Notes: generated from the sequence alone by a model not told the origin. Counted from the stretch's first letter, positions 1,112-43,024 are shown. The stretch is DNA of 43,763 nt from a candidate division CPR2 bacterium GW2011_GWC2_39_10 (GCA_000993275.1 LBVV01000017.1:1-43763); one strand, 5' to 3'. Made by a program: numbers and translations.

Positions 1112-1279
1112 ACAAAAAATAAACAAAAAACAATAAGCAACTAAAAAATTTTAGAATTAAGAATAACGAATTATGAATTAAGTATAAGAATATAGAATAA
1201 GGAATAAAGCAAAAGAAAACTATATTCTAATATTCTATATTCCCATTCTTGGGGCTTTATACTTGATTCTTTATTCTTC
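1112..1279. repeat. Phase-locked degenerate heptamer array (24 units)
   Basis: The spacer after the Clp-like gene reads as 24 consecutive 7-bp units without losing phase. The first units are ACAAAAA/ATAAACA-like. A block of GAATTAA, GAATAAC, GAATTAT, GAATTAA follows, and then the opposed orientation (ATTCTAA, TATTCTA, TATTCCC, ATTCTTG, ATTCTTT). The array runs into the last codons of the Clp-like gene. The two arms are roughly reverse complements, so the array can fold into a long imperfect hairpin. Similar arrays lie at 14069, 31219 and 42955. Confidence 0.6.
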
Positions 1280-3748
1280 AATATCTCCCACATCAAACAC
1301 TATCGGCGTATCTTTGTCTTCTTCGTCTCCTAGAACTTTTTTGGCAATAAAGTTTTCCAATTGTTCTTGCATTACTCGGCGCATTTCTCTGGCGCCAAAT
1401 TGGGGGTTAAAACCGAGGGAGGCCAATTTTGTAACCGCTTGACTTGTAACTTCCAGCTTTCTATCTCTTTCGGTTAGCAGCTTTTTTTGGATTTCCTTAA
1501 TCATTAACTCGGCTATTTCTCTTATTTGAAACTCACTAAGAGGATCAAAGGTGATCATGCTATCAAAACGGTTAACAAACTCGGGCCTGAAGATGCCGTC
1601 TCTTAGCAGTTTGTCCAGCAAAATTTTAGCAAATTCTTTGTTAGAAGAGTTGCCCTCAGCTGCTCTTTCTCTAATTATTTCCGAGCCGGCATTTGAGGTG
1701 GCAATAATTATTGTATGAGTAAAATCAATGGTGCGTTCTAAGTTATCTGTAATTCGGCCGTCATCTAAAATTTGCAAAAATAAGTTTAAAATATCCGGAC
1801 TTGCTTTTTCTATTTCATCTAAGAGAACCAGGGAAAACGGTTTTTCTCGAATCGGTTTTGTTAAATAGCCGCCGGCATCATTATCGTTTCCGAGAAGCTT
1901 ATAGATGGCGTCGTCATTTTGATATTCGGACATATCAAGCCGGACCATATTTTGTTCGCTTCCAAAGTAACTTTCGGCTAGTGCTTTTGATAATTCCGTT
2001 TTACCTACCCCCGTAGGGCCTAGAAACAAAAATGAGGCAACGGGTCTTTTACCGCTTTCCAGACCTGCCCGTGCCCTTCGCATGGCGTTAGCTACGGCTT
2101 TTACGGCATCATCTTGGCCAACCACCCTTTGATGAAGGAAATTTTCCAAATTAAGCAGAACGTCCTTTTCATTTCCGGAGGCTTCCTGAACCGGAATGTT
2201 GGTATTTTGGGAAATTGTTTTTTGAATTATTTCCGGCGATAAAACTTTTAGTCCCATATTCTGCGCTTTGATGCAGGATTCTTCTAAAAGATCAATTGCT
2301 TTTGCCGGAAAAGCTTTGTAGGGAATATATTTCTTGGCATCCCTGTAGGCTTCTTTTAGGCTTTGGTAGGTGACGGTAATTTTGTATTTGTATTCAAACT
2401 GAAAACTCAAGTCTTGCAATATGCGAAGCGTTACATTTTCATCGCCCTCCGGAATAACAAGCTTGTTAAAATAATTATTAATTTTGGAGTTAGCGCAAAT
2501 TTTGTGCCATTTTTCCGGCGTGGTTGCCCCAATAAGTTGCAGGGCGCCGCTTTCTAAGTACGGAATTAAAACCTGGGCCGCATTAACCGAACCCTGACCT
2601 TCTTCCAATAAAAGAGCATCTATGTCGTCTATAAATAGGATGATGTTTCCTGCCCTGCAAGCGTCATCTAAAATGCTCTTAAATCTTAGTTCAACTTCAC
2701 CTTCTTTTTGACTTGCACCGGCCAGAAGAGCGCCCGTTTCCAGTTCCAAAATTCTTCTATACCTAAGGCTTGGCATAACTTTTCCGTAAAGTACCTGTTT
2801 TGCAAATTCCCGAACCAAGGACTTTTTCCCTACGCCCGCCTCCCCAACCATAATAAGATGGCTGTGATTTTTTGTAAGAATTGTTTGCATGGTATCAACT
2901 AATTCCATTCTGGAAATGACGGAGTAGCGGGCCAGTCCTTTGGCAATTATTTCTGTCATGTCTTTGGCATAAATGTCAAGATTTTGAGTGTAGCCCGCCG
3001 ACCAGCTTTTGCCGATGCCGCCGGTAGAAATCCAATGGTCGGGGTCTAAAAAGTGACGCTTTTTTTGTTCCTCGTCCCAGATTGTTTTTTCCCAGAAAAC
3101 AAGGTTGTAAACGTCATCTTCTTTTAAATTTCGATCGGCAAAAAACCTTCGCAAGTTGTTGGAGGTTTCGTAAAATCCCCAAAATAAATCGCTTGATCCA
3201 ATTAGTTTTTGCTCGAAACCGCCGGCCATTTTTGCTGACGAAAGAAAAACTTGGTCAATTGTAGTTGCCGTACTTACTCCAACCAATTCCTGAAGACTAA
3301 TCCCTGCCTTATAAAAAATGAACCTGACTTGACTGGTTTTGGAGAGGGCAATAAAAAATGAATCAGGATCGGAGAGATAAGCAGGTTTAAAAATTCGGCA
3401 AGTGTCGTAATCAAGAAGAGAACCAATTTCCGTCTGATTACCACTTTGTATATTCGATAATGTATTATTTATACTAACCACGGGAACATAGTTTTTTATT
3501 TTAAAGATATGATAAAGTTTTGCGTTTACAAAAAATAAATTTAGCGCCATGAGGTTAAAAAGCGCAAAGTAAATAGTAGGACTAAAGTGCAAGAAAAAAC
3601 TTGTCAAAAAAGTTATAAGCGTAACTAGTGTTAAGGGGAAAGCTAATGCATTTAGAATCTTCAAATTTAATATTCGATCTAGCTTGGCTAAAAAGAAATT
3701 AATGTTGGACGTATTAACTGTAACTTTGGTTCCAATCTGGCTGCTCAT
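1271..3748 (-). CDS. Membrane-anchored Clp-family AAA+ ATPase
   Basis: A two-AAA-domain HSP100 protein of 825 residues. The N terminus has two TM segments (about 31-52 and 55-76), then a region resembling a Clp N-domain and a GKSWSAGYTQNLD motif (about 246-258). AAA1 has a modified Walker A (GEAGVGKKS, 302-310) and Walker B (ILFIDDID, 370-377), but the position of the usual Arg fingers reads NNYFNK. AAA2 is canonical: GPTGVGKT (577-584), LVLLDE (640-645), TSNAG (684-688), NR (726-727). No M-domain is seen and no I/L-G-F ClpP-docking loop follows TSNAG. The ATG at 3748 overlaps the upstream stop as ATGA and has a GAGG site; longer in-frame starts lie inside the upstream gene. It probably unfolds or disaggregates proteins at the membrane. 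Confidence 0.9.
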   Translation of the reverse strand: MSSQIGTKVTVNTSNINFFLAKLDRILNLKILNALAFPLTLVTLITFLTSFFLHFSPTIYFALFNLMALNLFFVNAKLYHIFKIKNYVPVVSINNTLSNIQSGNQTEIGSLLDYDTCRIFKPAYLSDPDSFFIALSKTSQVRFIFYKAGISLQELVGVSTATTIDQVFLSSAKMAGGFEQKLIGSSDLFWGFYETSNNLRRFFADRNLKEDDVYNLVFWEKTIWDEEQKKRHFLDPDHWISTGGIGKSWSAGYTQNLDIYAKDMTEIIAKGLARYSVISRMELVDTMQTILTKNHSHLIMVGEAGVGKKSLVREFAKQVLYGKVMPSLRYRRILELETGALLAGASQKEGEVELRFKSILDDACRAGNIILFIDDIDALLLEEGQGSVNAAQVLIPYLESGALQLIGATTPEKWHKICANSKINNYFNKLVIPEGDENVTLRILQDLSFQFEYKYKITVTYQSLKEAYRDAKKYIPYKAFPAKAIDLLEESCIKAQNMGLKVLSPEIIQKTISQNTNIPVQEASGNEKDVLLNLENFLHQRVVGQDDAVKAVANAMRRARAGLESGKRPVASFLFLGPTGVGKTELSKALAESYFGSEQNMVRLDMSEYQNDDAIYKLLGNDNDAGGYLTKPIREKPFSLVLLDEIEKASPDILNLFLQILDDGRITDNLERTIDFTHTIIIATSNAGSEIIRERAAEGNSSNKEFAKILLDKLLRDGIFRPEFVNRFDSMITFDPLSEFQIREIAELMIKEIQKKLLTERDRKLEVTSQAVTKLASLGFNPQFGAREMRRVMQEQLENFIAKKVLGDEEDKDTPIVFDVGDIEE

Positions 3749-4134
3749 AGAAACCTCAAAGAATAAAGGCTCAGTATTAAAGGAAGGAAAGGGAAGATAA
3801 CCCATAAACAAACAGCAATAAGCCACAAAACCAAAAAGCCGAAAACAACTATTAAGGCCGCAATTAAAAGGCCAATACGCATCATAAAACCAACCAGCCG
3901 GGAAATAGCGTTAAAGGTGAATGCATCCCAACGGTCTTTTGGAGTACCCGATGCCGATTGTGCTTCAATGCGGCGCCATGGCGAAAACAAGGTGCGCATT
4001 ATTTGTCCCAAAGAAAAATTTGCTAAAATATTTCTTAAAATTAGCCTGGAAAGAGTAAAAAATTGTTTTGGAAATTCAATATACCACCAAACTAAAAACG
4101 ACAAAATAACTGTTTTTGTAAGTAATCCCTCCAT
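3745..4134 (-). CDS. Membrane protein coupled to Clp-like ATPase
   Basis: This 129-residue protein has a hydrophobic N terminus and one or two strong C-terminal TM segments (about 82-127). Between them is a basic loop with an SPWRR motif (about 51-55). No named family is recognised. Its stop overlaps the start of the Clp-like gene (ATGA), so the two are translationally coupled and probably act together at the membrane; this protein may be an adaptor or assembly partner of the ATPase. The start codon lies exactly 6 nt after TAAAAT (4146-4141 on the minus strand) with no ribosome site, which suggests a leaderless mRNA. Confidence 0.8.
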   Translation of the reverse strand: MEGLLTKTVILSFLVWWYIEFPKQFFTLSRLILRNILANFSLGQIMRTLFSPWRRIEAQSASGTPKDRWDAFTFNAISRLVGFMMRIGLLIAALIVVFGFLVLWLIAVCLWVIFPFLPLILSLYSLRFL

Positions 4135-4140
4135 AAATCT

Positions 4141-4146
4141 ATTTTA
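4141..4146 (-). promoter_or_regulatory. -10 element for leaderless start at 4134
   Basis: TAAAAT on the minus strand, 6 nt before ATG, inside TGTTAAAATAGATTTATG. The same spacing occurs before the genes starting at 14244, 17000, 26195 and 29696. Confidence 0.55.
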
Positions 4147-4235
4147 ACACAAAAATAAAATTAAGGGTGGAAAGATAAAAAAGAATTAGTCTTTTGTCTC
4201 TTAAAAAAAACTTTTAAAATACTATGCTTGTTTTA

Positions 4236-4388
4236 ATGCCAAAAGATATTGCTAAAAAAATAAGAAAATCCGGGCACAAAATCGGGCAAAAAATTAAAAA
4301 GCCGACGCTCGTCGGCTTTGATGAATTTGCTAAATTGACTAAAAAAAGTTGGCAGAAGCTTAAAGAAATCACCAGAACTAAGAAATAA
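4236..4388 (+). CDS. Small basic protein, 50 residues
   Basis: A short ORF reading MPKDIAKKIRKSGHK... and ending ...TRTKK, rich in Lys and with amphipathic helical spacing. An in-frame ATG at 4224 would add four residues. A TAAAAT hexamer at 4215-4220 fits transcription starting near 4227, which favours the ATG at 4236. The ORF ends one base before the stop of the convergent gene at 4389. It contains an internal hairpin (AAAGCCGAC/GTCGGCTTT, about 4298-4319). No family is recognised; a nucleic-acid-binding role is possible from its charge alone. Confidence 0.5.
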   Translation: MPKDIAKKIRKSGHKIGQKIKKPTLVGFDEFAKLTKKSWQKLKEITRTKK

Positions 4389-4880
4389 TTATTTTTTCTT
4401 TAGCTTTATTTTTAAATCGACCGGAAGCAAGAATAAAAGTCCGCCAATAGTAAGGATAAATATGGCAAGTGACGGCAAGCCAAGACCAAAAACGATAGCC
4501 GTATCCATGGCGCTTTCTGCGCCTAGAGCTTTTATGGGCCACAACATGAATAAAAGCAGGGTACATAAACTTAGGATAAATTGTTCCGCATTGATTTTAA
4601 TTTTTAGGTGCTTTAGTAAATTTATGTTTAAAACATAAAGGGTTAGAATAAACAAAGAGAACTTAATGAGTGAAAATGCGAACAATTCGGTTGTTGATCC
4701 TCTTGCATACATTTCGGTTGCGGTTAGCGTCTGGCTGTAATAGATGCTGGACATGAAAACAACACACATAGTTGCCAAAACTTCGGCAAATATTATAAAA
4801 ATCATGTTTAACAGGACAAATTGTAGGGTTGGTTCCATACGCTTCAGTTCCTGTATCTGTTTTTCGTTTTTATAAGACAT
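4389..4880 (-). CDS. Integral membrane protein, four TM segments
   Basis: A 163-residue protein with four hydrophobic helices (roughly 20-46, 67-90, 100-117 and 127-152) and a basic end (DLKIKLKKK). The ATG at 4880 was chosen because GGAGG (4886-4890) sits 5 nt upstream; the in-frame GTG at 4886 lies inside that ribosome site. No family is recognised. It is convergent with the small ORF at 4236. A MITE has inserted in its upstream region (4939-5127). Confidence 0.75.
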   Translation of the reverse strand: MSYKNEKQIQELKRMEPTLQFVLLNMIFIIFAEVLATMCVVFMSSIYYSQTLTATEMYARGSTTELFAFSLIKFSLFILTLYVLNINLLKHLKIKINAEQFILSLCTLLLFMLWPIKALGAESAMDTAIVFGLGLPSLAIFILTIGGLLFLLPVDLKIKLKKK

Positions 4881-4938
4881 AAACACCTCCTCATTAATAT
4901 GATCCTCTTTTACCGCTAAAAAATCAAGGGTTAAAAAA

Positions 4939-5127
4939 GTAACTGCTCACAACCCCCCCTTTTTTTGTCATTCCAGACCCGCCTTGATGAGCAAAGCGAG
5001 GCAGGCTTGAACTGGAATCCAGAAAGCTCGATATTCAACCGGACAAGTGGATCCCAAATCAAGTTTGGGATGACATGGATAAGTTAATACAATTTGAACT
5101 TAAAATACAGGGGTTGTGAGTAGTGAC
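4939..5127. mobile_element. MITE, GTAACTGCTCAC family, copy B
   Basis: A 189-bp element with ends GTAACTGCTCACAACCCC and, read inward from the right, GTCACTACTCACAACCCC. It is flanked by TTAAAAAA on both sides (4931-4938 and 5128-5135), a perfect 8-bp target duplication. The interior differs from copies A, C and D: it carries the GTCATTCCAG ... CTGGAATCC type core and ends in a TGGGATGACA motif. No ORF. It lies next to the terminator at 5143-5171. Confidence 0.85.
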
Positions 5128-5142
5128 TTAAAAAAGTAAATT

Positions 5143-5171
5143 AAAAAGAGCTACCTTGGGCAGCTCTTTTT
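5143..5171. terminator. Bidirectional intrinsic terminator
   Basis: AAAAAGAGCT (5143-5152) and AGCTCTTTTT (5162-5171) form a 10-bp stem with a 9-nt loop and T-runs on both strands. It lies directly after the stop of the minus-strand gene at 5182. Confidence 0.8.
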
Positions 5172-5181
5172 AAATGATAAC

Positions 5182-6102
5182 CTATACTTCCGGAGTGGGA
5201 GTAGCTGTTGGGGTTGCTTCAGGTGAAGTTTCCGGAGTTACGGAAGGTGTTAGGGTTGGGTTGTTGGCGGTTTTTAGGGCAACTATAATTTTGTGTAATT
5301 CGGTTGAAGCTGCCTTCAAGGATTCTCTTGCCTTTTGTAAATCCGCTTTTCCCTCTTCTCTTAGAACCTTGGCCTGTTCCGGATCACTGGCAGAAATTGA
5401 TTTGAATATTTCTTTGGCTTGCGCTGCATAGCTTTTTGCTTCGGCAATTTTTTCGTTAAACGTTGCAAGGCTTGCTTCTATTGCGTCCACATCCGCACCA
5501 TCAGCTTTTGCTTTTGCGAGTAAACGTTCAATCTTTTTTTCTAAATTTTCCAGTCTATTAGTAACACCCTGAATTCTTGCCACGGCCATTATCCCGATTT
5601 GTTTCGGTTTCATAACGGTAATAATTTTATAATCGTATAGTTTTTTAACCAGGGGTTTTATGGTGGTTAAATCAGTCGCGGCTTGTATCTCGGTGTTTAG
5701 ATCGGTTAACGCAGTGATTTGCGTATTAATCCCGTCTTTAATTGTTGCTTTGTCGGCGTCGGAAAGTCTAGTGTTGGCATCGACATTTTCAATTAACTGG
5801 TTTAAAACGTCTATTCTATGATCGGTTGCTTTCTGGGCGGCTTTTTTTAAGGATTCTATTTTTTTTGTCTGCCCTGTAGCTGTCCTATATTCCTTAAATG
5901 CATCTTCAGTATCTTTCTTGAAAGTGGCATCATCGATCCTTGGCATCGGAGGCACGGGCGTAATTGTTGTTCTTCGTACTGTTGGGGTGGGAGTAGTTGT
6001 TACAACTCTTTTTAACGAAGAATCTCCGGGCGTGTTTGCCAATGTTGCAGTCGGTAGCGCTACTAGTACTATTAAGCTTGTTGAAATTAGATATTTTTTC
6101 AT
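5182..6102 (-). CDS. Secreted helical protein with Thr/Pro linkers
   Basis: This 306-residue protein starts with a signal peptide (MKKYLIST..., hydrophobic core to about residue 22). A TTTPTPTVRRTT linker and then a long helical, Lys/Glu/Ala-rich region (about 55-275) follow, with coiled-coil character around LENLEKKIERLLAKAKA. It ends in a Thr/Pro/Glu-rich tail. AGGAGG lies 5 nt before ATG. The gene follows the single-TM protein at 6113 with a 10-bp gap, so the two form an operon. Its likely location is outside the membrane. No enzymatic motif is visible; a structural or envelope role is inferred. Confidence 0.8.
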   Translation of the reverse strand: MKKYLISTSLIVLVALPTATLANTPGDSSLKRVVTTTPTPTVRRTTITPVPPMPRIDDATFKKDTEDAFKEYRTATGQTKKIESLKKAAQKATDHRIDVLNQLIENVDANTRLSDADKATIKDGINTQITALTDLNTEIQAATDLTTIKPLVKKLYDYKIITVMKPKQIGIMAVARIQGVTNRLENLEKKIERLLAKAKADGADVDAIEASLATFNEKIAEAKSYAAQAKEIFKSISASDPEQAKVLREEGKADLQKARESLKAASTELHKIIVALKTANNPTLTPSVTPETSPEATPTATPTPEV

Positions 6103-6112
6103 TCTATCCTCC

Positions 6113-6448
6113 TTATATTGCAGGAACCACGTCTGAAGTGGTATCGGTGTTAGTTATGTCTGTTAATTCTTTATCCAGGCCAATAATGTCTGCATTTAAA
6201 TCAGTTTCCGCTTTCTCCGTGTCCTTTAAATCGGTCGATGCCGAAGGCGTTGGAGTGACATTTGCTTTAGAAGCTGTCGGTGTGGGGCCAGATTTTGTTG
6301 ACTCGGAAAAACTGTAATATGTTATTCCGGCAATGCCCGAGGCAATTAAAATTGCCGCTACATAGGCTAGCCAAAATTTTTTAAAATGCTTTTCCTTTCC
6401 GTCCTTTACAGCCTTGCCAGCTTCGTTTTGGTCATTTTGGTCGTTCAT
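6113..6448 (-). CDS. Single-pass membrane-anchored protein
   Basis: A 111-residue protein with a charged N terminus (about 1-24), one TM segment (FWLAYVAAILIASGIAGITY, about 26-45) and a Thr/Pro/Ser-rich, then acidic, extracellular tail. GAGGG lies 5 nt before ATG. Its stop overlaps the region upstream of the secreted coiled-coil gene at 6102, so the two are co-transcribed and probably both belong to the envelope. No known family. Confidence 0.75.
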   Translation of the reverse strand: MNDQNDQNEAGKAVKDGKEKHFKKFWLAYVAAILIASGIAGITYYSFSESTKSGPTPTASKANVTPTPSASTDLKDTEKAETDLNADIIGLDKELTDITNTDTTSDVVPAI

Positions 6449-6521
6449 TTTTCCCTCTTTTAAATTAATTGTTAATCATATTTTAAACCTATGATTATTC
6501 CTTGTCAAACCACAAGCGCAG

Positions 6522-6643
6522 GTAACTGCTCAAAATCGTTATTGCGAACGATCCGGCAGCCGCCGGAGAGTGCGGCAATCTTGTTTCAAGCAGAGGAGAT
6601 TGCTTCGTTTCACTCGCAATGACGCAGGGTTGTGAGCAGTTAC
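6522..6643. mobile_element. MITE, GTAACTGCTCAC family, copy C
   Basis: A 122-bp element with ends GTAACTGCTCA and, read inward from the right, GTAACTGCTCACAACCCTGCG. The interior is that of copies A and D in inverse orientation. AAGCGCAG flanks both ends (6514-6521 and 6644-6651), a perfect 8-bp target duplication in a GC-containing target, so the match cannot be a low-complexity accident. The right end provides the TAA stop of the FAD oxidoreductase gene. Confidence 0.9.
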
Positions 6644-11980: not shown

Positions 11981-14061
11981 AAATTTTGCAAAACTTTATA
12001 TTAACATTGTCAGAACCATTAACGCTTAAGTTTTGTTTTTTTGTGCTTATGGGCATTTTTATTGCCTATAATATCATTCTTATCATAAAGCATTTTAGGG
12101 GCTGGCGTGTGCCCGAAAAGTTTGTGGGGCAAAGATGGTATCAAAATATTTTTCACTATATTAAAAGAGCAGGCTGGGGATTTTTACATCATAAAATAAT
12201 TTTTAATTTACTGCTTGTTGGTTCTGTCGGACTGGTGATTGCGGGATTTTATCTGCCGCTTCCTCATGTTATTTCTCCTTCTAATCCTTCCTTGGGGATC
12301 ACTGAAATATCGGATAAAAATCCGTTAATTGTTAAATTTGACAGAAGAGTAGACAAAGAAAATTTAAAATATGATTTATTTCCGGCTATAGAAGGAAATT
12401 GGGAATTTACGTCCGGCGTTACGGATTCTGATCTTAAGTTTGTCCCAAAAAAGACGCCGGAAGCGGAAACCAGATATACCATTTCTCTAAAAGGAATAAA
12501 AAATATTTTCGGGCGTAAGAGTGAAAATTATCTTTTTAGCTTTCAGACACCGCCGGCGCCAAAAATAGTTTCGGTAAGTCCGAGTGACGGTGACCAAGGG
12601 GTGTTGCCGAATCAGGAAATTATAGTCACTACCGACTTTCCCCATTTGTATACTGCCAAATTTACTTTTGATATTGAGCCGCCTGTAGAGCTGGATGTTA
12701 ATAATTTAGACGGTGTTAAATATTTATTTAAAGCCAAGGATAATTTTAAAAAGGGAACGGAATATAGTTTAAAAATATCAAGGATACTTACGACCTATAG
12801 CTACGAAACAAAAAAGACGGAAAATTTGGGAGAAGCAGAAGAGCTTTGGGCCGGTAAATTTAAAATTATTGAGGCCCCCGGTATAAAATCTTATACGCCC
12901 AATGGTTATGGAGCGCTAACGGATGCTTCAATAAGGATAGAATTTAGACAAGATATGAGTCAGGAAGAAACGGCCGCAGCTTTTTCCACGGATCCAAAAA
13001 TTGACGGTGATACTTCCTGGGAAAGCGCAAGGATGTTAGTTTTTAAGCCGAAAAGTCCTTTGAGTAAAAATACTAAGTACACGGTTGGTGTCTCCAAGTC
13101 GGCAAAAGCGGCAGATGACAGTAATTTCGAGGAAGCATTTTCCTATAGCTTTACCACTATCGGCCACGTTGCGGTTTCCGGCTTTTATCCGGGAAATGGG
13201 GCTCGAAATGTCGATTTAAATAGTCGGATTAATGTTACTTTTAATCAGGCAGTTGACCATGAAAGCGCGCAGGACAAATTTAGTATTTCGCCAACCGTTG
13301 AAGGCAGTTTTAGCTGGAATGGAAATACCATGGTTTTTGCTCCATCCGGTTTTGGGTACGGTAAAAGCTACGCAATAAACATTGCATCGGGTGTCAAAAC
13401 AATTAACGGTCTTGATTCTGTTAAAGGCTTTTCTTCCGGTTTCACAACAAGGCTGCAATCTGTCATGCTAAATATTCCTTCATGGAGGCAGACCTATATG
13501 TATACTTGTATGGCGGCAGCTTCCAGGCAGGCCTTGGCTTATAGGGGAATTACGGTGTCGGAATTGCACATTGTTGATTTAATGGGCTACGATCGCACAC
13601 CTTGGTCCGGAACATGGAGAGATTCAAACGCTGTTTGGGGGGATCCGAATGTAGGTTATATTGGTGATATTGACGGCAAATCGGCACCGGGCTGGGGATA
13701 CGGATCGCATTGGGATCCGGTGGTAAAGGCCTTGTCTAATTATCGCCCCGTTGAGCTTAAACGGAACTGGTCGGTTCAGGGAATTGCTCAGGAGCTCGCA
13801 AGCGGTAATCCGGTAATTGTTTGGTGGGTAAATGGTGTTTGGCCGGCTTACGAACTGTATTGGAAAAATAATGGCAAATCAATAAGAGCAGTCAATTCGG
13901 TGCACGTTCAGGTGGTAAAAGGGTTTACGGGTACGGTTGACAACCCCACTTCTTTTACCGTTAATGATTCCGGTTACGGTTATCCGGCAAGAACTTACGA
14001 CGTAGGAACCTTCCAGGCAAAATGGGGATGGTTTAGCAATACTGGGATAGTGGTTAAATAA
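11977..14061 (+). CDS. Surface protein: Ig-like repeats plus C39-like peptidase
   Basis: A 694-residue protein with two N-terminal hydrophobic segments (about 15-38 and 68-92). Four SbsA/Big_5-type Ig-like domains follow (about 100-195, 196-300, 303-395, 398-487), seen from repeated ITEISDKNP/VSVSPSDGDQGV-type starts. The C-terminal papain-like domain resembles Peptidase_C39_2, with Cys in YTCMAAASRQ (about 511), His in NSVHVQVVKG (about 643) and Asn/Asp in VNDSGYG (about 664). The ATGA overlap with the acyltransferase/deacetylase gene shows translational coupling. It is probably an anchored extracellular peptidase or peptide-crosslink enzyme. All three expected catalytic positions are present. 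Confidence 0.85.
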   Translation: MKILQNFILTLSEPLTLKFCFFVLMGIFIAYNIILIIKHFRGWRVPEKFVGQRWYQNIFHYIKRAGWGFLHHKIIFNLLLVGSVGLVIAGFYLPLPHVISPSNPSLGITEISDKNPLIVKFDRRVDKENLKYDLFPAIEGNWEFTSGVTDSDLKFVPKKTPEAETRYTISLKGIKNIFGRKSENYLFSFQTPPAPKIVSVSPSDGDQGVLPNQEIIVTTDFPHLYTAKFTFDIEPPVELDVNNLDGVKYLFKAKDNFKKGTEYSLKISRILTTYSYETKKTENLGEAEELWAGKFKIIEAPGIKSYTPNGYGALTDASIRIEFRQDMSQEETAAAFSTDPKIDGDTSWESARMLVFKPKSPLSKNTKYTVGVSKSAKAADDSNFEEAFSYSFTTIGHVAVSGFYPGNGARNVDLNSRINVTFNQAVDHESAQDKFSISPTVEGSFSWNGNTMVFAPSGFGYGKSYAINIASGVKTINGLDSVKGFSSGFTTRLQSVMLNIPSWRQTYMYTCMAAASRQALAYRGITVSELHIVDLMGYDRTPWSGTWRDSNAVWGDPNVGYIGDIDGKSAPGWGYGSHWDPVVKALSNYRPVELKRNWSVQGIAQELASGNPVIVWWVNGVWPAYELYWKNNGKSIRAVNSVHVQVVKGFTGTVDNPTSFTVNDSGYGYPARTYDVGTFQAKWGWFSNTGIVVK

Positions 14062-14068
14062 GAAGAAA

Positions 14069-14236
14069 GAATTTTGAATTTTGAACTTGGATGGTTGAAT
14101 TGGAATGGAGAATCTAGAATAGCGGGAAAACCCCCAAATTTAAAAATACCTAAATTTCATATTCCATATTCTGTTTCCTGGTTCCTGGTTCCTGGTTACT
14201 GTTTCTTGTTTACTGCTTCTTGTTTTTTGTTTATTA
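14069..14236. repeat. Phase-locked degenerate heptamer array (24 units)
   Basis: The spacer between two surface-protein genes splits into exactly 24 units of 7 bp. It begins GAATTTT, GAATTTT, GAACTTG, GATGGTT, GAATTGG. The right arm is opposed: TATTCCA, TATTCTG, TTTCCTG, GTTCCTG, GTTCCTG, GTTACTG, TTTCTTG, TTTACTG, CTTCTTG, TTTTTTG. Its length equals that of the array at 1112-1279. A 60-codon open frame across it is a by-product of the repeat. Confidence 0.65.
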
Positions 14237-31091: not shown

Positions 31092-31135
31092 CCAGGTCTC
31101 TGTTATCCACCTTGCGGTGAATTTCAGAGACCTGG
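31092..31135 (-). terminator. Hairpin overlapping the tRNA-Glu 3' end
   Basis: CCAGGTCTCTG (31092-31102) and CAGAGACCTGG (31125-31135) are perfect 11-bp arms around a 22-nt loop. On the minus strand the stem begins with the CCA of the tRNA and is followed by a T-rich stretch (TTTGTTT). It may be the tRNA terminator and must compete with CCA exposure in the precursor. Confidence 0.55.
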
Positions 31136-31209
31136 TAGCCCCGGCGGGATTCGAACCCGCGATCTTCAGGATGAAAACCTGATATCCTAGGCCTCTAGAC
31201 GACGGGGCC
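31133..31209 (-). tRNA. tRNA-Glu (anticodon TTC)
   Basis: The minus strand folds as a tRNA. The acceptor is GGCCCCG/CGGGGCT with a G-U first pair, discriminator A and encoded CCA. The D-arm follows GTCGTCTAGAGG. The anticodon stem TCAGG/CCTGA has loop TTTTCAT, giving TTC. The T-arm is GCGGGTTCGAATCCCGC. It reads GAA/GAG codons. It is the only tRNA seen in the window and lies inside the accessory region at 29-38 kb, between two repeat elements. Confidence 0.97.
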
Positions 31210-31218
31210 TCATTAGGT

Positions 31219-31288
31219 CAACAAACAAAAAACAATGAACAACCAGAAGAAACTGCTATATGTTCCTTATTTTTTGTTATTTGACTAC
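31219..31288. repeat. Heptamer array (10 units)
   Basis: Ten 7-bp units in phase. The left arm is CAACAAA, CAAAAAA, CAATGAA, CAACCAG; the right arm is opposed (TGTTCCT, TATTTTT, TGTTATT). It is the same two-arm design as the arrays at 1112, 14069 and 42955. It lies directly upstream of the tRNA-Glu gene. Confidence 0.55.
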
Positions 31289-31796
31289 AATAATTTAACA
31301 GATTATAGGCGTTTTGTAAACACACAATTTGATTTTTGATTTTTCACTGAACCAGCTTCGCTTCTTAAAAATAAATATTTTGCTTAATCGTCATTCCCGC
31401 AGAGACGGGAATCCAGAAGCTTGACTATTTGTTGCCTAAAATGATGGTAGACCTTAAAAAAGCGGCTATGGAGAAAATGGTCTGGCTTTACCTTTGCGAT
31501 TGCCATATAAATGCTGTTATAAATCTTGCCAATCTTCTTGGGAGGTTACTAACCGAAGAAGAGCTTCATGGCGGCGCATATCCATGTAACCTTCCATATA
31601 ACCTCAAGAGCTTATATGGAAGCCTTGCCTTTTGAAGTTTTTCTAGCAAACCTTAAAGAATGTCTAGAGACTCTGGTAAAAAAATGGGTTCTAATGGTTC
31701 GCAACTCAACAAGACGCTTGGTGGGTTGGGGGTGATTTTATTTTACTAGCTTCGCTTTAAACGTACACGCCGGCTAACGCCGGTGGTTTGTATGAT
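31289..31796. other. Spacer with repeat remnants, no convincing gene
   Basis: It contains a GTCATTCCCGC ... GGGAATCC hairpin (about 31390-31413) of the type found in MITE cores, an 11-bp inverted repeat CTTCCATATAA/TTATATGGAAG (31591-31601, 31612-31622), and a short CCGGC/GCCGG hairpin near 31769-31782. A 68-codon frame at 31429 has no ribosome site and overlaps these repeats, so it is not called. The region looks like accumulated element debris. Confidence 0.5.
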
Positions 31797-35862: not shown

Positions 35863-35880
35863 ATGGCAGAGGAAAAATAA

Positions 35881-36789
35881 ATGGAAATATTAGTCAGCTA
35901 CTTTACTACTAAATTCGATCTCATGAAAGAGCATTGGGCCAAGCACTCGGCCCTTAAAGATAAAGAGGTGATGGGAACTAATAAGGCATTCGACCAAGAC
36001 CTAGGAGGTTTAGTTAGAAGAATTGATTGGTCAACAAAAAAGGTTATTAGTGATTACGATATAAAAGTTCCAACTGGAATAACTAAAGGCTTTGGTAAGA
36101 CATTTATTGTTTCTGAGGAGAACAAAATTCTTGTTTTTGCGAATGACTTTGAGCTCGAAGGAATAATTACTTCCCCATTACTTAATTGCACTCATAGTAT
36201 TTCTGTTACTGATAAGGGCTTGCTTTGTGCATCAACTGGACTTGATGCTTTGGTTGAATTGGATTTAAACTCGAACATTCTTTTTGAATGGTTCGCAACT
36301 GAGAATGGATACGATACAGCGCCACAGGGTGTTAAGCGTGAGATCGATAAGAAAAAAGATCATCGAAATGTTACTTATACCACCCTCGAACAGACGACTC
36401 ATGTTAACTCAGCTATTAAAGTTGGGGATTATTTATTGGCAACTTTTTTTCATCAAGGATATTTAGTGAAAATAAACACTTGGGATAGTTCTCATGAGGT
36501 TGTGCTACAGGGCCTTAAAAATCCTCATTCCATTTATCCTTATAAGGAAGGTTTTATGCTATCGGATACCTCGCATAACCAGGTATGTATCTTAGACAAA
36601 AATTATAAGATTATCATAGAGGTTCGCAATCAATTTAATTGGGTTCAGGATGCTGTTCCATTTGGAAATAATTTCTTGATTGCTGATTCAAATAATCATC
36701 GCATTGTTGAGATTAATGAGGCTGGTAAAATTCTCGATGAGTATAGATTTAGTGAGAAACTAAAGATATATCAAATTTTGGCGGTATAG
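35881..36789 (+). CDS. Cytoplasmic beta-propeller (NHL/ASST-like) protein
   Basis: A 302-residue protein built of repeated beta-blade motifs (GGLVRRIDWSTKKVI, LKNPHSIYPYKEGFMLSDTS, FLIADSNNHRIVEINEAG). No signal peptide is present, so it is likely cytoplasmic. The PHS and NHR motifs recall NHL and arylsulfotransferase-type propellers, but conserved catalytic His residues cannot be assigned with confidence. It has an AGAGGA ribosome site and lies 18 bp after the kinase gene. In this operon it may bind or modify the pathway product. Confidence 0.7.
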   Translation: MEILVSYFTTKFDLMKEHWAKHSALKDKEVMGTNKAFDQDLGGLVRRIDWSTKKVISDYDIKVPTGITKGFGKTFIVSEENKILVFANDFELEGIITSPLLNCTHSISVTDKGLLCASTGLDALVELDLNSNILFEWFATENGYDTAPQGVKREIDKKKDHRNVTYTTLEQTTHVNSAIKVGDYLLATFFHQGYLVKINTWDSSHEVVLQGLKNPHSIYPYKEGFMLSDTSHNQVCILDKNYKIIIEVRNQFNWVQDAVPFGNNFLIADSNNHRIVEINEAGKILDEYRFSEKLKIYQILAV

Positions 36790-36790
36790 C

Positions 36791-37531
36791 ATGTATAGAA
36801 AAGAAAACAATTTTAAGGCTATGATTAGTGAACTAAAAGACTTTTTTTCGCGTCAGTTTGGGGATGATCATTTTACAATTATTTATGGATCTAATGCCTA
36901 CAAGACAAACACTTCGAGCTCTGATTTAGATTTTGTGACTGCTTGCAAGCATTTTCACGATTCGCATCTTCAAGAAGTTTTAAAATTCGCGTTTGATCTT
37001 TATGAAAGATATGGCTTGATGATTGATGATGAAGTGCCGCATGAAAAGAAGATATTAATATCTTATGAAACGGTTAATAGGGCTATAAATGGTCATGGTT
37101 TTGAGCGTAAGGTTGATAGCATACATGTGCCCCCAGTTGTTAAAACGCCAGGGTTTCTTTCTTCTGACGAGATTGTTATGAGACTATCTCTAAATGCACT
37201 TACCGGTAAAAGTGTTTTTGTTTCAGGCAATAGGCAGTATTATTTGAAAATGCGACGTAAGGCTTTGGAAAACCTTGTTAAATTTAATTTTTTAATAAAC
37301 AATGTAAACTCTTTTACTGTTGCTGAGTTTACTGATTCGTTAATAGGTACCCCAGAAAGAAATAGTGAAATGTATTTGGGATATAAAGACAATCCGAAAG
37401 TTAAGAAACACTTATCAAAAACTTTTTTGACGCAATTTGAGAGACTCAGTAAAAGGCAAATATTAAAATACACCGAAAAAACTGGTCGGTATTGTTTGGT
37501 AGACAAAAAATGGTTGAAGGAAGTAAGTTAG
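36791..37531 (+). CDS. Nucleotidyltransferase-fold protein
   Basis: A 246-residue protein with the Pol-beta/MNT-type motif IIYGSNAYKTNTSSSDLDF (GS then DxD, about 29-47). An acidic segment (MIDDEVPHEKK) could give the third carboxylate, and a helical C-terminal half follows. Such domains transfer NMP groups to small molecules or proteins. It starts 1 bp after the propeller gene stop and its own stop is 1 bp before the next start, so translation is coupled. The substrate is unknown. Confidence 0.75.
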   Translation: MYRKENNFKAMISELKDFFSRQFGDDHFTIIYGSNAYKTNTSSSDLDFVTACKHFHDSHLQEVLKFAFDLYERYGLMIDDEVPHEKKILISYETVNRAINGHGFERKVDSIHVPPVVKTPGFLSSDEIVMRLSLNALTGKSVFVSGNRQYYLKMRRKALENLVKFNFLINNVNSFTVAEFTDSLIGTPERNSEMYLGYKDNPKVKKHLSKTFLTQFERLSKRQILKYTEKTGRYCLVDKKWLKEVS

Positions 37532-37532
37532 C

Positions 37533-38579
37533 ATGAAAGGCGGTTATTTAGACTTTAGTGTGAATTTAAATCCTGTTCCGCTTAGCACGGAACTGTTAAA
37601 GCGCATCAATAAAGAAATGAATTCTTTGCTTTCTTGTTATCCAAATGAAGAAGATGCCCTAAATTTCCTTGCTGATTACTACAGCATCCCAGTAGGAAAT
37701 ATTGTTATTGGCAACGGATCGACTGAAATTTTTTTTATTTTGCCAGATGCTTTATGTTTTAAAGGGGCGATTGTAGTGATGCCTACCTTTTGGGAGTATA
37801 CTATTTCGTTAGAAAGGTCAAATAGCAAGGTTATACCATTCTATGTAGAAGAAAAAGATAATTTTAATTTGGATATCATAGCTCTGGAGCGGTTTGTTGG
37901 ACAGAAAGTTAAAGAAGAAGACATAGGCGCGGTATATTTATGTAATCCCAACAATCCGACATCAACTTTAGTGAGAGGCAAAGAAGTTATTCGGTTATGC
38001 AACAAATTTCCAAAAATTAAATTTGTTGTGGACGAAACTTATCTTCTTTTTGACAAGGACTATCGTCAGCTTAGTTTGATTAGTACCGCAATTAGCCGTC
38101 AGAATCTAGTTGTTGTTTTTTCTTTTTCAAAGTTTTTTAACATTCCTGGTGCTAGAATTGGGGTGTGTGTCGCAAGCAATGAAGACATTAAATCCATTAA
38201 AAGCCAAAGAGTTCCATATGGCCTAAATGGAGTTGGTTTAAAAATGATACCAATGATTTTGCGCGATAAGAAGTATGCAGAATTTTCTAGAGATTTAATA
38301 AGTTCTCAAAGACAAAGGCTCTATAAGCGTTTAAGCGAAATTCCTTATCTAAAAGTTTTTGAGCCCAGGGCAAACTATATTTTAGTGAAAATAGTCAACG
38401 CTAAAAAAGGGGATGCAACTGATCTTTGTAATTTTCTTGATAAGGAGGGTATTATCGCAAGGCATGGAGCTAATCTTGGTCTTGGTGGTAGGTATGTTAG
38501 ATTTACCGTTAGAACTATAGAAGAAAATGATTTTTTAATAAAAGTTATTAAAAAATCATTTGAACAATTCAGATCATGA
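37533..38579 (+). CDS. CobD/HisC-like PLP aminotransferase or decarboxylase
   Basis: A 348-residue fold-type I PLP enzyme. The start, LDFSVNLNPVPLS, matches threonine-phosphate decarboxylase (CobD) and histidinol-phosphate aminotransferase. Further motifs are GNGSTEIFF, YLCNPNNPTSTL (about 133-144), VVDETYLLF and the PLP lysine in FSFSKFFNIPGARIG (about 198). CobD decarboxylates O-phospho-amino acids, so with the kinase and nucleotidyltransferase in this operon a phospho-amino-alcohol product is a reasonable guess. No cobamide genes are visible. It is the last gene of the operon, and a MITE-like element follows at 38600. Confidence 0.87.
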   Translation: MKGGYLDFSVNLNPVPLSTELLKRINKEMNSLLSCYPNEEDALNFLADYYSIPVGNIVIGNGSTEIFFILPDALCFKGAIVVMPTFWEYTISLERSNSKVIPFYVEEKDNFNLDIIALERFVGQKVKEEDIGAVYLCNPNNPTSTLVRGKEVIRLCNKFPKIKFVVDETYLLFDKDYRQLSLISTAISRQNLVVVFSFSKFFNIPGARIGVCVASNEDIKSIKSQRVPYGLNGVGLKMIPMILRDKKYAEFSRDLISSQRQRLYKRLSEIPYLKVFEPRANYILVKIVNAKKGDATDLCNFLDKEGIIARHGANLGLGGRYVRFTVRTIEENDFLIKVIKKSFEQFRS

Positions 38580-38599
38580 TCTGTCCTAGCATAAGAGTT

Positions 38600-38730
38600 G
38601 AGACCGTTGAAAAACGTTTTTTAGAGTGTCATTGCGAGGAACGAAGCAATCTCCCTACACTCGAAACAAGATTGCCGCACTCCCTCCGGTCGCTCGCAAT
38701 GACGATTTTGGAGAGATTTTCAATAGTCGC
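38600..38730. mobile_element. MITE-like element, GACYRTTGAAAA ends
   Basis: GAGACCGTTGAAAA (38600-38613) and TTTTCAATAGTCGC (38717-38730) are inverted with three mismatches. The interior (CATTGCGAGGAACGAAGCA ... GATTGCCGCACTC ... CTCGCAATGACG) is the same type of core as in copies A, C and D of the GTAACTGCTCAC family, but with different ends. No clear target duplication. It marks the right edge of the CCGG-poor region. Confidence 0.65.
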
Positions 38731-38780
38731 TTTGCGGTAAAATTATTTTTTTGGGGTTTACCTTATAGCTTATTTTTTGA

Positions 38781-38786
38781 TATACT
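38781..38786 (+). promoter_or_regulatory. -10 element of the 38795 gene
   Basis: Extended -10 TGATATACT with ATG 8 nt after the hexamer and no ribosome site. A TTTACC hexamer lies about 18 nt upstream. A leaderless or nearly leaderless mRNA is expected. Confidence 0.5.
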
Positions 38787-38794
38787 TTTAATGC

Positions 38795-39817
38795 ATGAGG
38801 ATTCTAAAAGTTATTCTTTCCGTGTTAATCATTATTTTCTCGGTCGCATTTGGGGCTTTTTTGGGTGTAACCAAATATCAGCAAAAAATTTCTGCTGAAA
38901 GCGAGAAACCGGAAGAAAAATTTATTGTATATCCGCTTCCGCAAATTATTTCTCCTAAATCCGGTATTGAAGTTTCCGGCAAGCAAAATGTTTTAGTTGC
39001 CGCTCCGGGAGCAAAAGCTTTGTATCTTTCCGGAAAAAACGAATCAGGTGAAACACTAAACGAGGGCGAAGCAGAAATAGTGAGCGGGCTTGGTGAATTT
39101 GAATGGGATACTACCAGCTATAAAGACGATAGTTATAATGTTTATGTTACGGCTTATTATCAAACAGGCGCACCGTCAAAAGTAGGAATCAGCTTAGATG
39201 TTAAAAATAGCGATAAATCCGGAATTATCGGGGAAGAATTAAAATCCTCTTCCAATACCGCTTATCAGTCCGACAAAATTGATTCAGATTCTGCTTTAAC
39301 CCGGAATGAGGATCAAACCAAAAAAGAGTTAAATGCATTAGAAATTGATCAAAACCTTCTTATTGAAAAATTGGAAGTAATTCAAAGTGATGATAAGTTT
39401 AAAGTAACAATAAGCGGTTTGGCTAAAGATTATCAAAAAATAAACATCAACACATTCTCGTCTCATAAAAAAAAGGAAGTTAGTATTGATCCAAACGGGG
39501 CTTTTAAGACGGAAATAGTGTTATCCGTGGGGCGTCACGAAATTTATGCAGATTCAGGCGGAAAAAGAAGTCCGGTTGCCGAAGTTTATTTAAGTTCCCA
39601 AACCTCTCAAAAACCATTGGCCATGGTTAACGATTTAAAAAAGGAAGTTATAACTTACGGATCATATACCGGAGGACCGGCGATACTTCTGGTTTTGTTT
39701 GGCTGGTTTTTGCCGTTGGCAAAGCAAGCAAAGCCTTGCTCGGATAATGCCAAAGAGTTAAACTTAAAGCATGGAAGAGAAGAGCGAAGTACTGGATCAG
39801 CTCGAAAAAATAAATAA
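38795..39817 (+). CDS. Membrane-anchored Ig-like surface protein
   Basis: A 340-residue protein with an N-terminal TM or signal anchor (about 5-25). Two beta-sandwich-like regions (about 45-135 and 190-275, with PKSGIEVSGKQNVLVAAPG and DPNGAFKTEIVLSVGRHEIY) flank a Ser/Asp-rich linker. A C-terminal TM segment (about 292-312) precedes a basic tail. It probably displays Ig-like domains outside the membrane. Its 3' end overlaps a possible small ORF at 39771. Confidence 0.75.
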   Translation: MRILKVILSVLIIIFSVAFGAFLGVTKYQQKISAESEKPEEKFIVYPLPQIISPKSGIEVSGKQNVLVAAPGAKALYLSGKNESGETLNEGEAEIVSGLGEFEWDTTSYKDDSYNVYVTAYYQTGAPSKVGISLDVKNSDKSGIIGEELKSSSNTAYQSDKIDSDSALTRNEDQTKKELNALEIDQNLLIEKLEVIQSDDKFKVTISGLAKDYQKININTFSSHKKKEVSIDPNGAFKTEIVLSVGRHEIYADSGGKRSPVAEVYLSSQTSQKPLAMVNDLKKEVITYGSYTGGPAILLVLFGWFLPLAKQAKPCSDNAKELNLKHGREERSTGSARKNK

Positions 39818-39887
39818 AAAAATTGACAGTCCAAATCCCGAACTCAAAAGAGGGAAATATTTGTTTTATTGCGACAGAACTATATGA
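39771..39887 (+). CDS. Possible small coupled ORF, 38 residues
   Basis: It reads MEEKSEVLDQLEKINKKIDS and continues to DRTI; charged and helical. It overlaps the previous gene by 47 bp in another frame and ends in ATGA with the start of the next gene at 39884, so it could couple translation between them. The ribosome site is weak. Uncertain. Confidence 0.35.
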   Translation: MEEKSEVLDQLEKINKKIDSPNPELKRGKYLFYCDRTI

Positions 39888-40570
39888 AAAAGGTGGAAAA
39901 AATATTATTTGTAAGAGCATTAATTATTTTGCTTTTATTTTTGTTGCTACTGTTATTTTTGACTTACGGTTTAAAAAAATATGAGAATGAACGTCGTCAG
40001 GTTACTATTACAACAACACCGTATATAACCAGATATCCGACACCAACTGCCCCTGCAAATTATGAGGTTCATTACGCCATGGTGGTCAATGCAAGCAGCG
40101 GCTATATTGTTGTGTTCGATGAAAAAATAGGTAGCGAAAGAACAATCAGGGATTCGGGTCGTATAATAAAAGTAAGGAAATTTACGTATACGGATTGTGC
40201 TGGTACGGAAACTATTGATTGTCTAGGCGAGGGTGAAATTTATGGCACCGGTGATATCTCTTCACTAAAAAGGGGTGATAATGTTGATTTAATTATTAAT
40301 TCCCGTTCTGAAGTTTCAAAAATTCTTGCAGGAAAAACTATTAGCAATACAACTACTCCGACTTTCTCTAATTATGAATTTGGTTATGCGTCAATGAACT
40401 ATAATTATATTGCTTTCAGACGAGATAACTATTCGAAAGCCTTTTTAGTTGACAGTAAAACGCAGTATTTAATGGATGGTGCTAGTGGGAATATAAATAG
40501 TTTTAAAGATGGTGATATTTGCACTGTTATGGTTGCGGAAAATCTTATCACTAAACTGGAAACTCGATGA
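39884..40570 (+). CDS. Membrane-anchored protein with two beta domains
   Basis: A 228-residue protein with an N-terminal TM anchor (ILFVRALIILLLFLLLLLFL), a Thr/Pro linker (PTPTAP) and two similar beta-rich segments (about 55-140 and 155-225), each with a VVFDE/AFLVDS and GDxVDLII/GDICTVMV pattern. The ATG at 39884 is preferred over an in-frame TTG at 39869 because it forms an ATGA overlap with the small ORF upstream. Likely extracellular. Function unknown. Confidence 0.7.
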   Translation: MKKVEKILFVRALIILLLFLLLLLFLTYGLKKYENERRQVTITTTPYITRYPTPTAPANYEVHYAMVVNASSGYIVVFDEKIGSERTIRDSGRIIKVRKFTYTDCAGTETIDCLGEGEIYGTGDISSLKRGDNVDLIINSRSEVSKILAGKTISNTTTPTFSNYEFGYASMNYNYIAFRRDNYSKAFLVDSKTQYLMDGASGNINSFKDGDICTVMVAENLITKLETR

Positions 40571-40618
40571 TTATATTGCAACAGAAGTAATAATGCATTA
40601 AGCTATGTGTAGGGATAA

Positions 40619-41638
<1,020 letters not shown>

Positions 41639-41642
41639 TTTG

Positions 41643-41754
41643 AGTCTTCTCTCCTATATTTTCCGAATAGAGGGTCTAACCCTTTTAGATCATAATACCT
41701 TCTCTTGGGTTAATATTATTGGTAATATGTTTAGAGGAAGACTTTAAATAGGAG
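41643..41754 (+). promoter_or_regulatory. Structured gap-pgk spacer, possible leader RNA
   Basis: AGTCTTCTCT (41643-41652) can pair with AGAGGAAGACT (41733-41743, one bulged G), closing a domain that holds the hairpin GGGTCTAACCC (41672-41682) and an alternative partner GGGTT (about 41707-41711). The GGAG ribosome site of pgk follows at once (41751-41754). No known riboswitch class was recognised. Confidence 0.35.
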
Positions 41755-41760
41755 ATTTTA

Positions 41761-42939
41761 ATGAAGGTTATTTCAGACATTAAAGATTATGATTTAAAAA
41801 ATGCTAAGGTTTTAGTAAGGGTTGATTATGACGTAAAGATGGAAAACGGCAAAGTAATTAGCGATAACAGAATGAAGGCGAGCCTAGATACAATTAAATA
41901 TTTAAGAGAAAAAGGAGCAAAACTAATTTTAATGTCGCATCTTGGTCGGCCGGACGGAAAAGCAGTTAAAGAAATGTCTTTGCTGCCGGTTGCCGAGCAT
42001 TTGGCGGAAATTTTGGGGGTTAACGTATCTTTTGCGCCTGATATTATGTCGGAGCAGACGAAGAAAATGATTGACGTTTTGGATAACGGTGATATTTTAC
42101 TGCTGGAAAATTTAAGATACTATGCCGGTGAAGAGGGAAATGATGAAGAATTTGCCAAGAGGTTATCGTCATTTGCCAACATCTATGTTAACGATGCTTT
42201 TGCCACTTCGCACAGGGCTCATGCCTCCATGGATGCCGTGCCGCGTATTTTAGACAACAGTTATGCCGGTTTTCAGCTTCAGCGTGAGGTTGAAAATTTA
42301 TCCAAAATAACCGATAACCCCAAAAGACCGCTTGTTGCTATTATCGGCGGCAAAAAAGTTTCGGATAAAGTGAAAGTTTTAGAAAACTTCTTAAAATTTG
42401 TGGATATTATTTTAGTGGGAGGCGGAGCCGCTAATGTATTTTTAGCTTCTCAAGATTATGAAATTGGCGATTCTTTTGTGGAAGATGATTTATTAGATTT
42501 TGCCGATGATTTGCTTTCGAAAGCTGAAAGTATGGGAGTGCAAATAATAATTCCAAGTGATGTTGTTGTTGCTAAAAAAGTTGATAACGGTCAAAAAACA
42601 GAAACAAAAGATGTGGTTGAAGTTGATAAGGATGACATTATTGTAGACATAGGACCGGAAACAGTAGAAAGTTTTAAAGAGCCAATTGAATTTGCCGGCA
42701 CAATCGTTTGGAACGGTCCTTTAGGTATTTTTGAGTTTGAAAATTTTAAAAAAGGCAATGATTCCGTGGCTGAGCTAATAGCGGATTCCGGCGCATTTAC
42801 CTTAATTGGTGGCGGTGACACTATTGCCGGTCTGCCCAAAGGCCTAAAAGAAAAGTATAGCTACATGTCTACAGCCGGAGGGGCAACTTTAGACTTTCTG
42901 GCCGGAAAAAAACTGCCGGGAATAGAAGCAGTGAAATAA
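41761..42939 (+). CDS. pgk: Phosphoglycerate kinase
   Basis: A 392-residue PGK that makes ATP from 1,3-bisphosphoglycerate. It has VLVRVDYDVKMENGKV and SDNRMKASLDTI at the substrate site, LMSHLGRPDG (about 59-68), LLENLRYYAGEE, YVNDAFATSHRAHAS (about 142-156), VAIIGGKKVSDK, and the C-terminal GGGDTIAGLPK and STAGGATLDFLAGK. All usual motifs are present. AGGAG precedes ATG. It lies between gap and tpiA. Confidence 0.98.
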   Translation: MKVISDIKDYDLKNAKVLVRVDYDVKMENGKVISDNRMKASLDTIKYLREKGAKLILMSHLGRPDGKAVKEMSLLPVAEHLAEILGVNVSFAPDIMSEQTKKMIDVLDNGDILLLENLRYYAGEEGNDEEFAKRLSSFANIYVNDAFATSHRAHASMDAVPRILDNSYAGFQLQREVENLSKITDNPKRPLVAIIGGKKVSDKVKVLENFLKFVDIILVGGGAANVFLASQDYEIGDSFVEDDLLDFADDLLSKAESMGVQIIIPSDVVVAKKVDNGQKTETKDVVEVDKDDIIVDIGPETVESFKEPIEFAGTIVWNGPLGIFEFENFKKGNDSVAELIADSGAFTLIGGGDTIAGLPKGLKEKYSYMSTAGGATLDFLAGKKLPGIEAVK

Positions 42940-42954
42940 TTTCCTAAGGAAATT

Positions 42955-43024
42955 ATAAATAACGATAAACAAATAACAAAAAACAGTTTTTATTGCTTAT
43001 TGTTCATTGTTTTTTGTTTATTAA
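42955..43024. repeat. Heptamer array (10 units) between pgk and tpiA
   Basis: Ten 7-bp units in phase: ATAAATA, ACGATAA, ACAAATA, ACAAAAA, ACAGTTT, then the opposed arm TTATTGC, TTATTGT, TCATTGT, TTTTTGT, TTATTAA. The arms are approximate reverse complements around 42988. The tpiA promoter (TACTAT near 43035-43040) begins directly after it. Confidence 0.6.

Follow-up and report, generated by a model that had tools for sequence, protein, structure and literature searches.

Among bacteria, repeats of seven nucleotides are over-represented; slippage tied to the length of DNA held by the polymerase has been suggested as their origin, as mentioned in PMC4692102 with reference to Mrazek 2007. The known system that comes closest to the arrays described here, alike in both placement and pairing, is that of the GGGAATC repeats of Xanthomonas. 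These lie between aligned genes and are rare between divergent ones; the sense-strand arm is found 0-50 bp from stop codons, some copies overlapping them, the antisense arm lies upstream of the next gene, and 70-75 inverted pairs occur per genome (PMC4692102). At a given gene pair, their length and sequence vary from one species to another (PMC4692102). Another heptamer, GGGGA(T/C)T, is repeated in Nostoc (Rehm et al. 2015, PMC4692102). Abundant intergenic heptamer arrays are also formed by the TAACTGA repeats of Beggiatoaceae, cyanobacteria and Bacteroidetes, and in cyanobacteria, Calothrix among them, heptanucleotide short tandem repeats are likewise intergenic (MacGregor 2015, PMC4679880; the latter as summarized in PMC4692102).

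The window analyzed in this study is a stretch of 43,763 nucleotides, contig 17 of the genome of the candidate division CPR2 bacterium GW2011_GWC2_39_10 (1.10 Mb in 34 contigs, 38% GC). An earlier note on this DNA had described four of its intergenic spacers as unusual arrays of degenerate heptamers in two opposed arms, akin in kind to the heptamer repeats of cyanobacteria, and our analysis bears this description out. The same note did not recognize the palindromic form from any known system; the paired inverted repeats of Xanthomonas, with their like placement, provide a precedent (PMC4692102). The 7-nt period, the position between aligned genes, the sense arm at the stop codon, the antisense arm ahead of the next gene and the inverted pairing of the Xanthomonas and Nostoc repeats were all found here. 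Whereas those repeats consist of one G-rich, quadruplex-capable unit, the present arrays comprise many degenerate A/T-rich, G-poor families whose arms switch together. Since the units are A/T-rich and G-poor, quadruplexes cannot be the general explanation; judging from the unit sequences, their formation is impossible for most of them. The arrays likewise differ from the TAACTGA repeats, which have a fixed unit, are direct (one being indirect) and lie just upstream of start codons (PMC4679880), in being degenerate, paired and located at stop codons. The Calothrix-type repeats are described as near-perfect and single-armed, and PMC4692102, where it deals with them, does not describe paired arms or unit switching, both of which were observed here. 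The features of the window are collected in Table 1.

Table 1. Heptamer arrays of the window and the genes next to them.
Feature	Position	Strand	Description
Array 1, outer arm	1112..1152	(-)	AAACAAN/TTGTTTN-type heptamers, assigned on sequence; type common to many arrays
Array 1, core	1153..1278	(-)	GAATNNN heptamers forming an imperfect palindrome, which overlaps the clp-type stop codon
Gene upstream of array 1	1271..3826	(-)	Clp/ClpB-type AAA+ ATPase; TAA stop within the first heptamers
Array 2, purine/A-rich arm	14062..14125	(+)	GAATTTT, GAATTGG, AATGGAG ...; directly 3' of the TAA at 14059-14061
Array 2, middle/loop	14126..14160	(+)	Kept in the sister species: GGGAAAACCCCCAAATTTAAAAATACCTAAAT
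Array 2, T-rich arm	14161..14236	(+)	CTGGTTC, TTGTTTN ...; 5 units shorter in the sister species
tRNA-Glu(ttc)	31133..31209	(-)	Adjoins array 3
Array 3	31219..31288	(-)	Short heptamer hairpin with two arms of AACAAA/TTGTT type; lies upstream of tRNA-Glu at a distance of 10 bp
Gene upstream of array 4	41761..42939	(+)	Phosphoglycerate kinase; matches the Pgk half of a Pgk/Tpi model
Array 4, A-rich arm	42955..42985	(+)	ATAAACAAATAACAAAAAAC; 15 bp past the phosphoglycerate kinase stop codon
Array 4, T-rich arm	42989..43024	(+)	TTATTGT TCATTGT TTTTTGT TTATTAA; reverse complement of the array 4 A-rich arm

Self-similarity at lag 7 far exceeded that of composition-matched shuffles in array 1 (1112-1279; z = 5.8), array 2 (14069-14236; z = 7.8) and array 4 (42955-43024; z = 4.1). 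The excess in array 3 (31219-31288) was also present, but modest (z = 2.9), and lag 3 scored about equally there, making it the weakest of the four. Two details of the first description did not hold. The heptamers had been said to run without phase loss; around the centers of arrays 1, 2 and 3 the best local lag is no longer 7, and array 1 contains a 6-bp unit. The shared length of 168 bp for arrays 1 and 2 had been thought striking; it arises because both were trimmed to multiples of 7, and the two arrays are not homologous. The claim that each left arm is approximately the reverse complement of the right is correct for the array 1 core, array 3 and array 4, which fold, and in part for array 2, in which the left arm consists mainly of GAATNNN and the right mainly of CTGGTTC/TTGTTTN units; it fails for the outer piece of array 1, a distal T-rich arm when read in the clp direction, without a partner opposite. 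Arrays 1, 2 and 4 follow the plan of stop codon, A-rich arm, loop and T-rich arm found genome-wide (see below). Array 3 is situated between metG and tRNA-Glu, distant from the metG stop codon. An Rfam search of the window returned the tRNA as its sole match.

The earlier note had proposed scanning this genome and its relatives at lag 7. We read all of the window's genome (G000), 762 kb of a same-genus sister (G001) and, from a genome of the same family (G002), 399 kb, part of it masked; the public genome set contained one close match only, with a GAPDH 96% identical. Counting as a peak any 56-bp stretch with at least 62% identity at the lag in question, we found 67 lag-7 peaks throughout G000; the multiples 14 and 21 gave 22 and 11, and lags outside this series 0-8. 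Intergenic runs numbered 173 at lag 7 and 4-23 at the other lags between 5 and 13. In the sister genome, lag 7 gave 49 peaks and lags other than its multiples 0-8, and the signal was present in the same-family genome as well. Contigs of mixed other phyla, used for comparison, showed no lag-7 excess, with about 2 above the masked-run baseline. For the distant relatives G028, G035 and G037, the data consist of pattern counts and a few loci, one of which, a 3-kb G028 locus, has the layout of A-rich arm, loop and T-rich arm. The heptamer arrays are thus real and genome-wide. In the tests that follow, gene ends are those of ORFs of at least 70 codons rather than calls of a trained gene finder, the arm thresholds were fixed once and left untuned, and several tests share the same three related genomes; the cases are not all independent, because copies of the array 1 element feed some of the counts. 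Loss of MutS (mismatch repair), SbcD (a hairpin nuclease) or Rho as a permissive factor was also considered and was rejected: none of the three had a match above the cut-off in this genome, but no correlation with the number of heptamers was seen over 97 relatives.

Many unit words coexist in this one genome, among them GAATTNN, TTGTTTN/AAGCAAT, TCAAATN, TTCAAAA, CTAAATC, GATTCCT, AATTGNN and AACAGTN; the unit families that are unrelated to one another number at least seven. The most frequent units, such as AAATGTC, AAACAAT and AAAATTC, are not of the G-rich, quadruplex-forming kind. Similarity between units decays with the distance separating them, from 0.62 for neighbors (a value due partly to selection) through 0.52, 0.46 and 0.40 to 0.36 for units five apart, the last being about the level of A-rich composition alone. 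Such decay is what local duplication and drift predict, rather than a fixed binding site. Perfect arrays of at least 10 units also exist. Many arrays are one-armed and cannot fold, which speaks against the hairpin reading given below. As a separate observation, the two most variable columns of the unit were adjacent in 51% of cases versus 33% expected by chance, an excess that we set aside because composition could produce it.

The arrays have a consistent anatomy, in which an A-rich arm just after or overlapping a stop codon is followed by a loop, an inverted T-rich arm of the same family and the next co-directional gene. Over the three genomes, 68 of 125 coding-strand A-rich arms start between -60 and 0 from the stop codon, almost all of the 68 from -30 onward, and the first units of the arm often contain the stop codon. 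T-rich arms lie farther downstream (Mann-Whitney p = 3e-17, three genomes), about 90 bp after the A-rich arms and about 50 bp ahead of the next gene. Adjacent arm pairs were ordered A-then-T in 26 of 27 cases, with a single T-then-A pair, and hairpins overlapping heptamers had an A-rich 5' arm in 59 of 62 cases and a T-rich one in three. By contrast, GC-richer inverted repeats devoid of heptamers, which served as a control, had A-rich and T-rich 5' arms in a ratio of 12:14. Arrays occupied 15 of 168 divergent gaps versus 153 of 560 co-directional ones (p = 1e-7; p = 1e-5 with length matching).

The two arms of an array also match one another. When each A-rich arm was compared with inverted downstream sequence, the mean score was 25.5 for its own gap and 20.1 for other gaps (z = 6.8; 0 of 5000 permutations); a direct-orientation control was also raised, but less so (z = 3.5). 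In all nine two-arm cases folded, the real order of units gave a more stable structure than a shuffled order (z from -0.4 to -2.7). The guess in the earlier note that the repeats might be structural agrees with such paired arms.

Comparison of orthologous gene ends revealed that arrays persist while their words change. The sister genome had an array at 25 of the 39 ends at which G000 has one, and at 10 of the 99 at which it does not (p = 4e-10); for G000 and G002 the same comparison involved too few cases to reveal this by itself (p = 0.3). Fourteen of the 25 retained ends carried dissimilar A-rich arms, far more than a background of 10% would give (p = 1e-7); some of these dissimilar arms may nevertheless belong to one family and have diverged by drift. 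Among 20 switched ortholog pairs, those from G002 included, an arm paired better with its own partner than with that of the other species in 15 (Wilcoxon p = 0.0008); hence both arms tend to change together. At the gene end encoding ...DDIPF*, for instance, the arms are CAATAAA/TTTATTG in G000 and G001 and AGGAAACAG/CTATTTCCTAG in G002. In the sister, the array 4 site carries the family AAATATC AAATGTC AAATAAC in place of AAACAAN, and the array 1 site a small hairpin followed by TCAAATN units. The note had suggested that alignments be inspected for turnover in steps of 7, and array 2 exhibits exactly this: its flanks and loop are conserved in an independent genome, and its T-rich arm has nine full units here and four in the sister, a difference of exactly 35 bp. 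Clean 7-bp indels made up 5 of 15 indels within arrays and 1 of 34 elsewhere (p = 0.008).

Together, the fixed order of the arms, their position at stop codons and their concerted change suggest that a folded pair is kept at 3' ends. The paired arrays may well be 3'-end hairpins grown by duplication of 7 nt, acting as intrinsic, often two-way, terminators or as 3' stabilizers, a reading that we judge to stand at an even chance. Arms lengthen and shorten by whole 7-nt units, as seen at array 2 and in several ortholog comparisons, and drift by point mutation, which would explain why neighboring units are alike and distant ones are not; we infer replication slippage as the cause of the steps. Once transcribed, a pair of arms would be expected to fold into a long A-U hairpin, A-rich on its 5' side and U-rich on its 3' side whichever strand is read. 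The folded hairpin would be the property retained, serving at transcript 3' ends between co-directional genes, and the unit word would be free to change provided that both arms changed jointly.

The arrays have the layout of an intrinsic terminator, A-rich 5', U-rich 3' and downstream of genes, and resemble bidirectional intrinsic terminators in having a hairpin that follows a stop codon and lies between genes that are co-directional or converge. Those terminators possess a short GC stem and a U-run, whereas the stems here are long A-U heptamer stems and their role is a predicted one. In favor of the reading, no match to Rho above the cut-off was found in this genome; against it, the presence of Rho was uncorrelated with the number of heptamers over 97 relatives. 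Direct checks gave a terminator role no support. Base-pair covariation was not found in the array 1 element. Ordinary terminators were scarcer in gaps with arrays (p = 0.002), but this scarcity disappeared once the space occupied by the array was allowed for; nor were orthologs without an array richer in ordinary terminators (3/24 vs. 24/178). Furthermore, a few A-rich arms run straight into an ordinary terminator, as at the groEL-type end, and the arm itself is therefore not always the terminator. It is because these checks gave no support that we go no further than an even chance for the hairpin, and give functionless hot spots, in which the arms are born paired, a lesser but real chance.

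Under that alternative, slippage by 7 nt and templating of one arm on the other through a hairpin would occur wherever insertions are tolerated, mainly after stop codons. The indels of whole units, the decay of similarity with distance and the perfect long arrays are all consistent with such a process, as they are with the suggestion in the earlier note of a polymerase-made repeat, which fits the origin of the arrays; slippage by the length of DNA held by the polymerase has, moreover, already been proposed for bacterial heptamers (Mrazek 2007, as mentioned in PMC4692102). The match between arms could likewise arise by one being copied from the other, and the array 1 element, the sole family with enough copies, yielded no usable base-pair covariation. 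A strand-blind process, however, would be expected to give neither the A-then-T order (26:1 for arm pairs, 59:3 for hairpins) nor the depletion between divergent genes, and retention at the same ends with different unit families would require the extra assumption that hot spots persist.

Mobile palindromic elements of the MITE or REP type, inserting after stop codons, would account for the array 1 core, which is a dispersed palindrome of about 125 bp (27 or more copies across G000 and the sister, 71-93% alike), and for C4:35741 and C4:39372, a pair of another copied element. Most arrays have a heptamer type in common rather than an element sequence. Near-identical dispersed copies were found for the array 1 core only, with varying ends, and copying would explain the spread of one family but not the 7-bp period or the arm polarity across families. 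Like REP/REPIN sequences, the arrays include dispersed intergenic palindromes in a genome with RAYT-type genes; unlike them, they do not flank these genes, for both Y1 (RAYT-type) transposase genes have GC-rich inverted repeats of another kind on either side. As these flanking repeats are unrelated to the arrays, we rejected a RAYT/REP link, and mobility as the general explanation is improbable.

A sequence-specific protein-binding array with 7-bp spacing, another of the guesses in the earlier note, might explain the regular spacing, the long arrays and the adjacency of variable columns, whose excess composition may account for; with seven or more unit families, none related to another, in a single genome, unit words replaced at orthologous sites and units five apart no more alike than A-rich composition makes them, it is very improbable. 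For a chance period in AT-rich DNA, or an artefact of assembly, only array 3 might speak, which taken by itself is just modestly above chance. Such an origin is refuted for arrays 1, 2 and 4 and is hardly credible in general, given the control lags, the shuffles, the mixed-phylum contigs, the three separate assemblies and the flanks and loop of array 2 kept in an independent genome.

A bolder version of the 3'-end hairpin reading is more speculative, and we regard it as rather unlikely. It holds that the 7-nt period, the purine-first/pyrimidine-last order and the site at the stop codon would be the selected traits of a class of 3'-end elements occurring in unrelated phyla, with the word left free; the arms might be rewritten jointly, for example by hairpin-templated copying of 7 nt, while the fold is kept.

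Heptamers have been noted as over-represented since 2007, yet no reason for this has won acceptance, and G-quadruplexes were invoked for the case studied best. Here, in an unrelated lineage, placement and pairing are the same although the units are A/T-rich, G-poor and of many families, which sets the architecture apart from the sequence. The concerted switching of arms at orthologous ends offers a route to ask whether the fold is selected or whether only the process by which the arms are born is a paired one. Finally, long A-U hairpins after stop codons would form a class overlooked, in small genomes lacking Rho, by terminator finders that search for stems rich in GC.

The core of array 1 (1153-1278) is a dispersed imperfect palindrome of ~125 bp (GAATTAAGAATAAY... 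/ ...CCCATTCTTGGGGCTTTATACTTGATTCTTTATTCTT), at least 27 copies of which, 71-93% alike, occur across the genome containing the window (G000) and its same-genus sister (G001). It is possibly a mobile element. In the G001 ortholog of array 2 (C40:12780-13052 and C39:1-60; contig:position), an insertion-sequence-like element with ends CTGTCTAAAAA / TTTTTAGACAGCC lies in the gap at the contig ends, with the A-rich heptamer arm on one side and the inverted T-rich arm on the other. Separately, two Y1/RAYT-type transposase genes in G000 have GC-rich inverted repeats on either side, a different one for each gene (AAAGGGTTAGACCC...; CACACACCCGGTGTGTAC...).

Near array 3, a short tandem of TTTGATT occupies 31328-31344. 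Elsewhere in G000, two perfect heptamer arrays, each of at least 10 units, suggest recent expansion; another array (AAGAAACAAGAAACAAAAAGCAATAAAC) lies within an open reading frame (C9:75140-75239) and encodes a lysine/glutamine-rich stretch.

Positions of palindrome copies, perfect arrays and transposase genes
Feature	Genome	Position	Unit
Array-1 palindrome, example copies	G000	C6:52638, C6:39924, C12:13853, C20:644	
Array-1 palindrome, example copies	G001	C53:3029, C9:12755	
Perfect array	G000	C1:1377-1527	GATTCCT
Perfect array	G000	C28:3954-4093	AAGCAAT
Transposase gene L077	G000	C18:3158-3385	
Transposase gene L078	G000	C6:33847-34077	

At groEL-type gene ends (G000 C23:21895 and, in a same-family genome, G002 C2:139966), and likewise at G000 C9:4337 and C23:14325, an ordinary terminator with a GC stem comes immediately after the A-rich heptamer arm, which in these places looks like a spacer separating that terminator from the stop codon.
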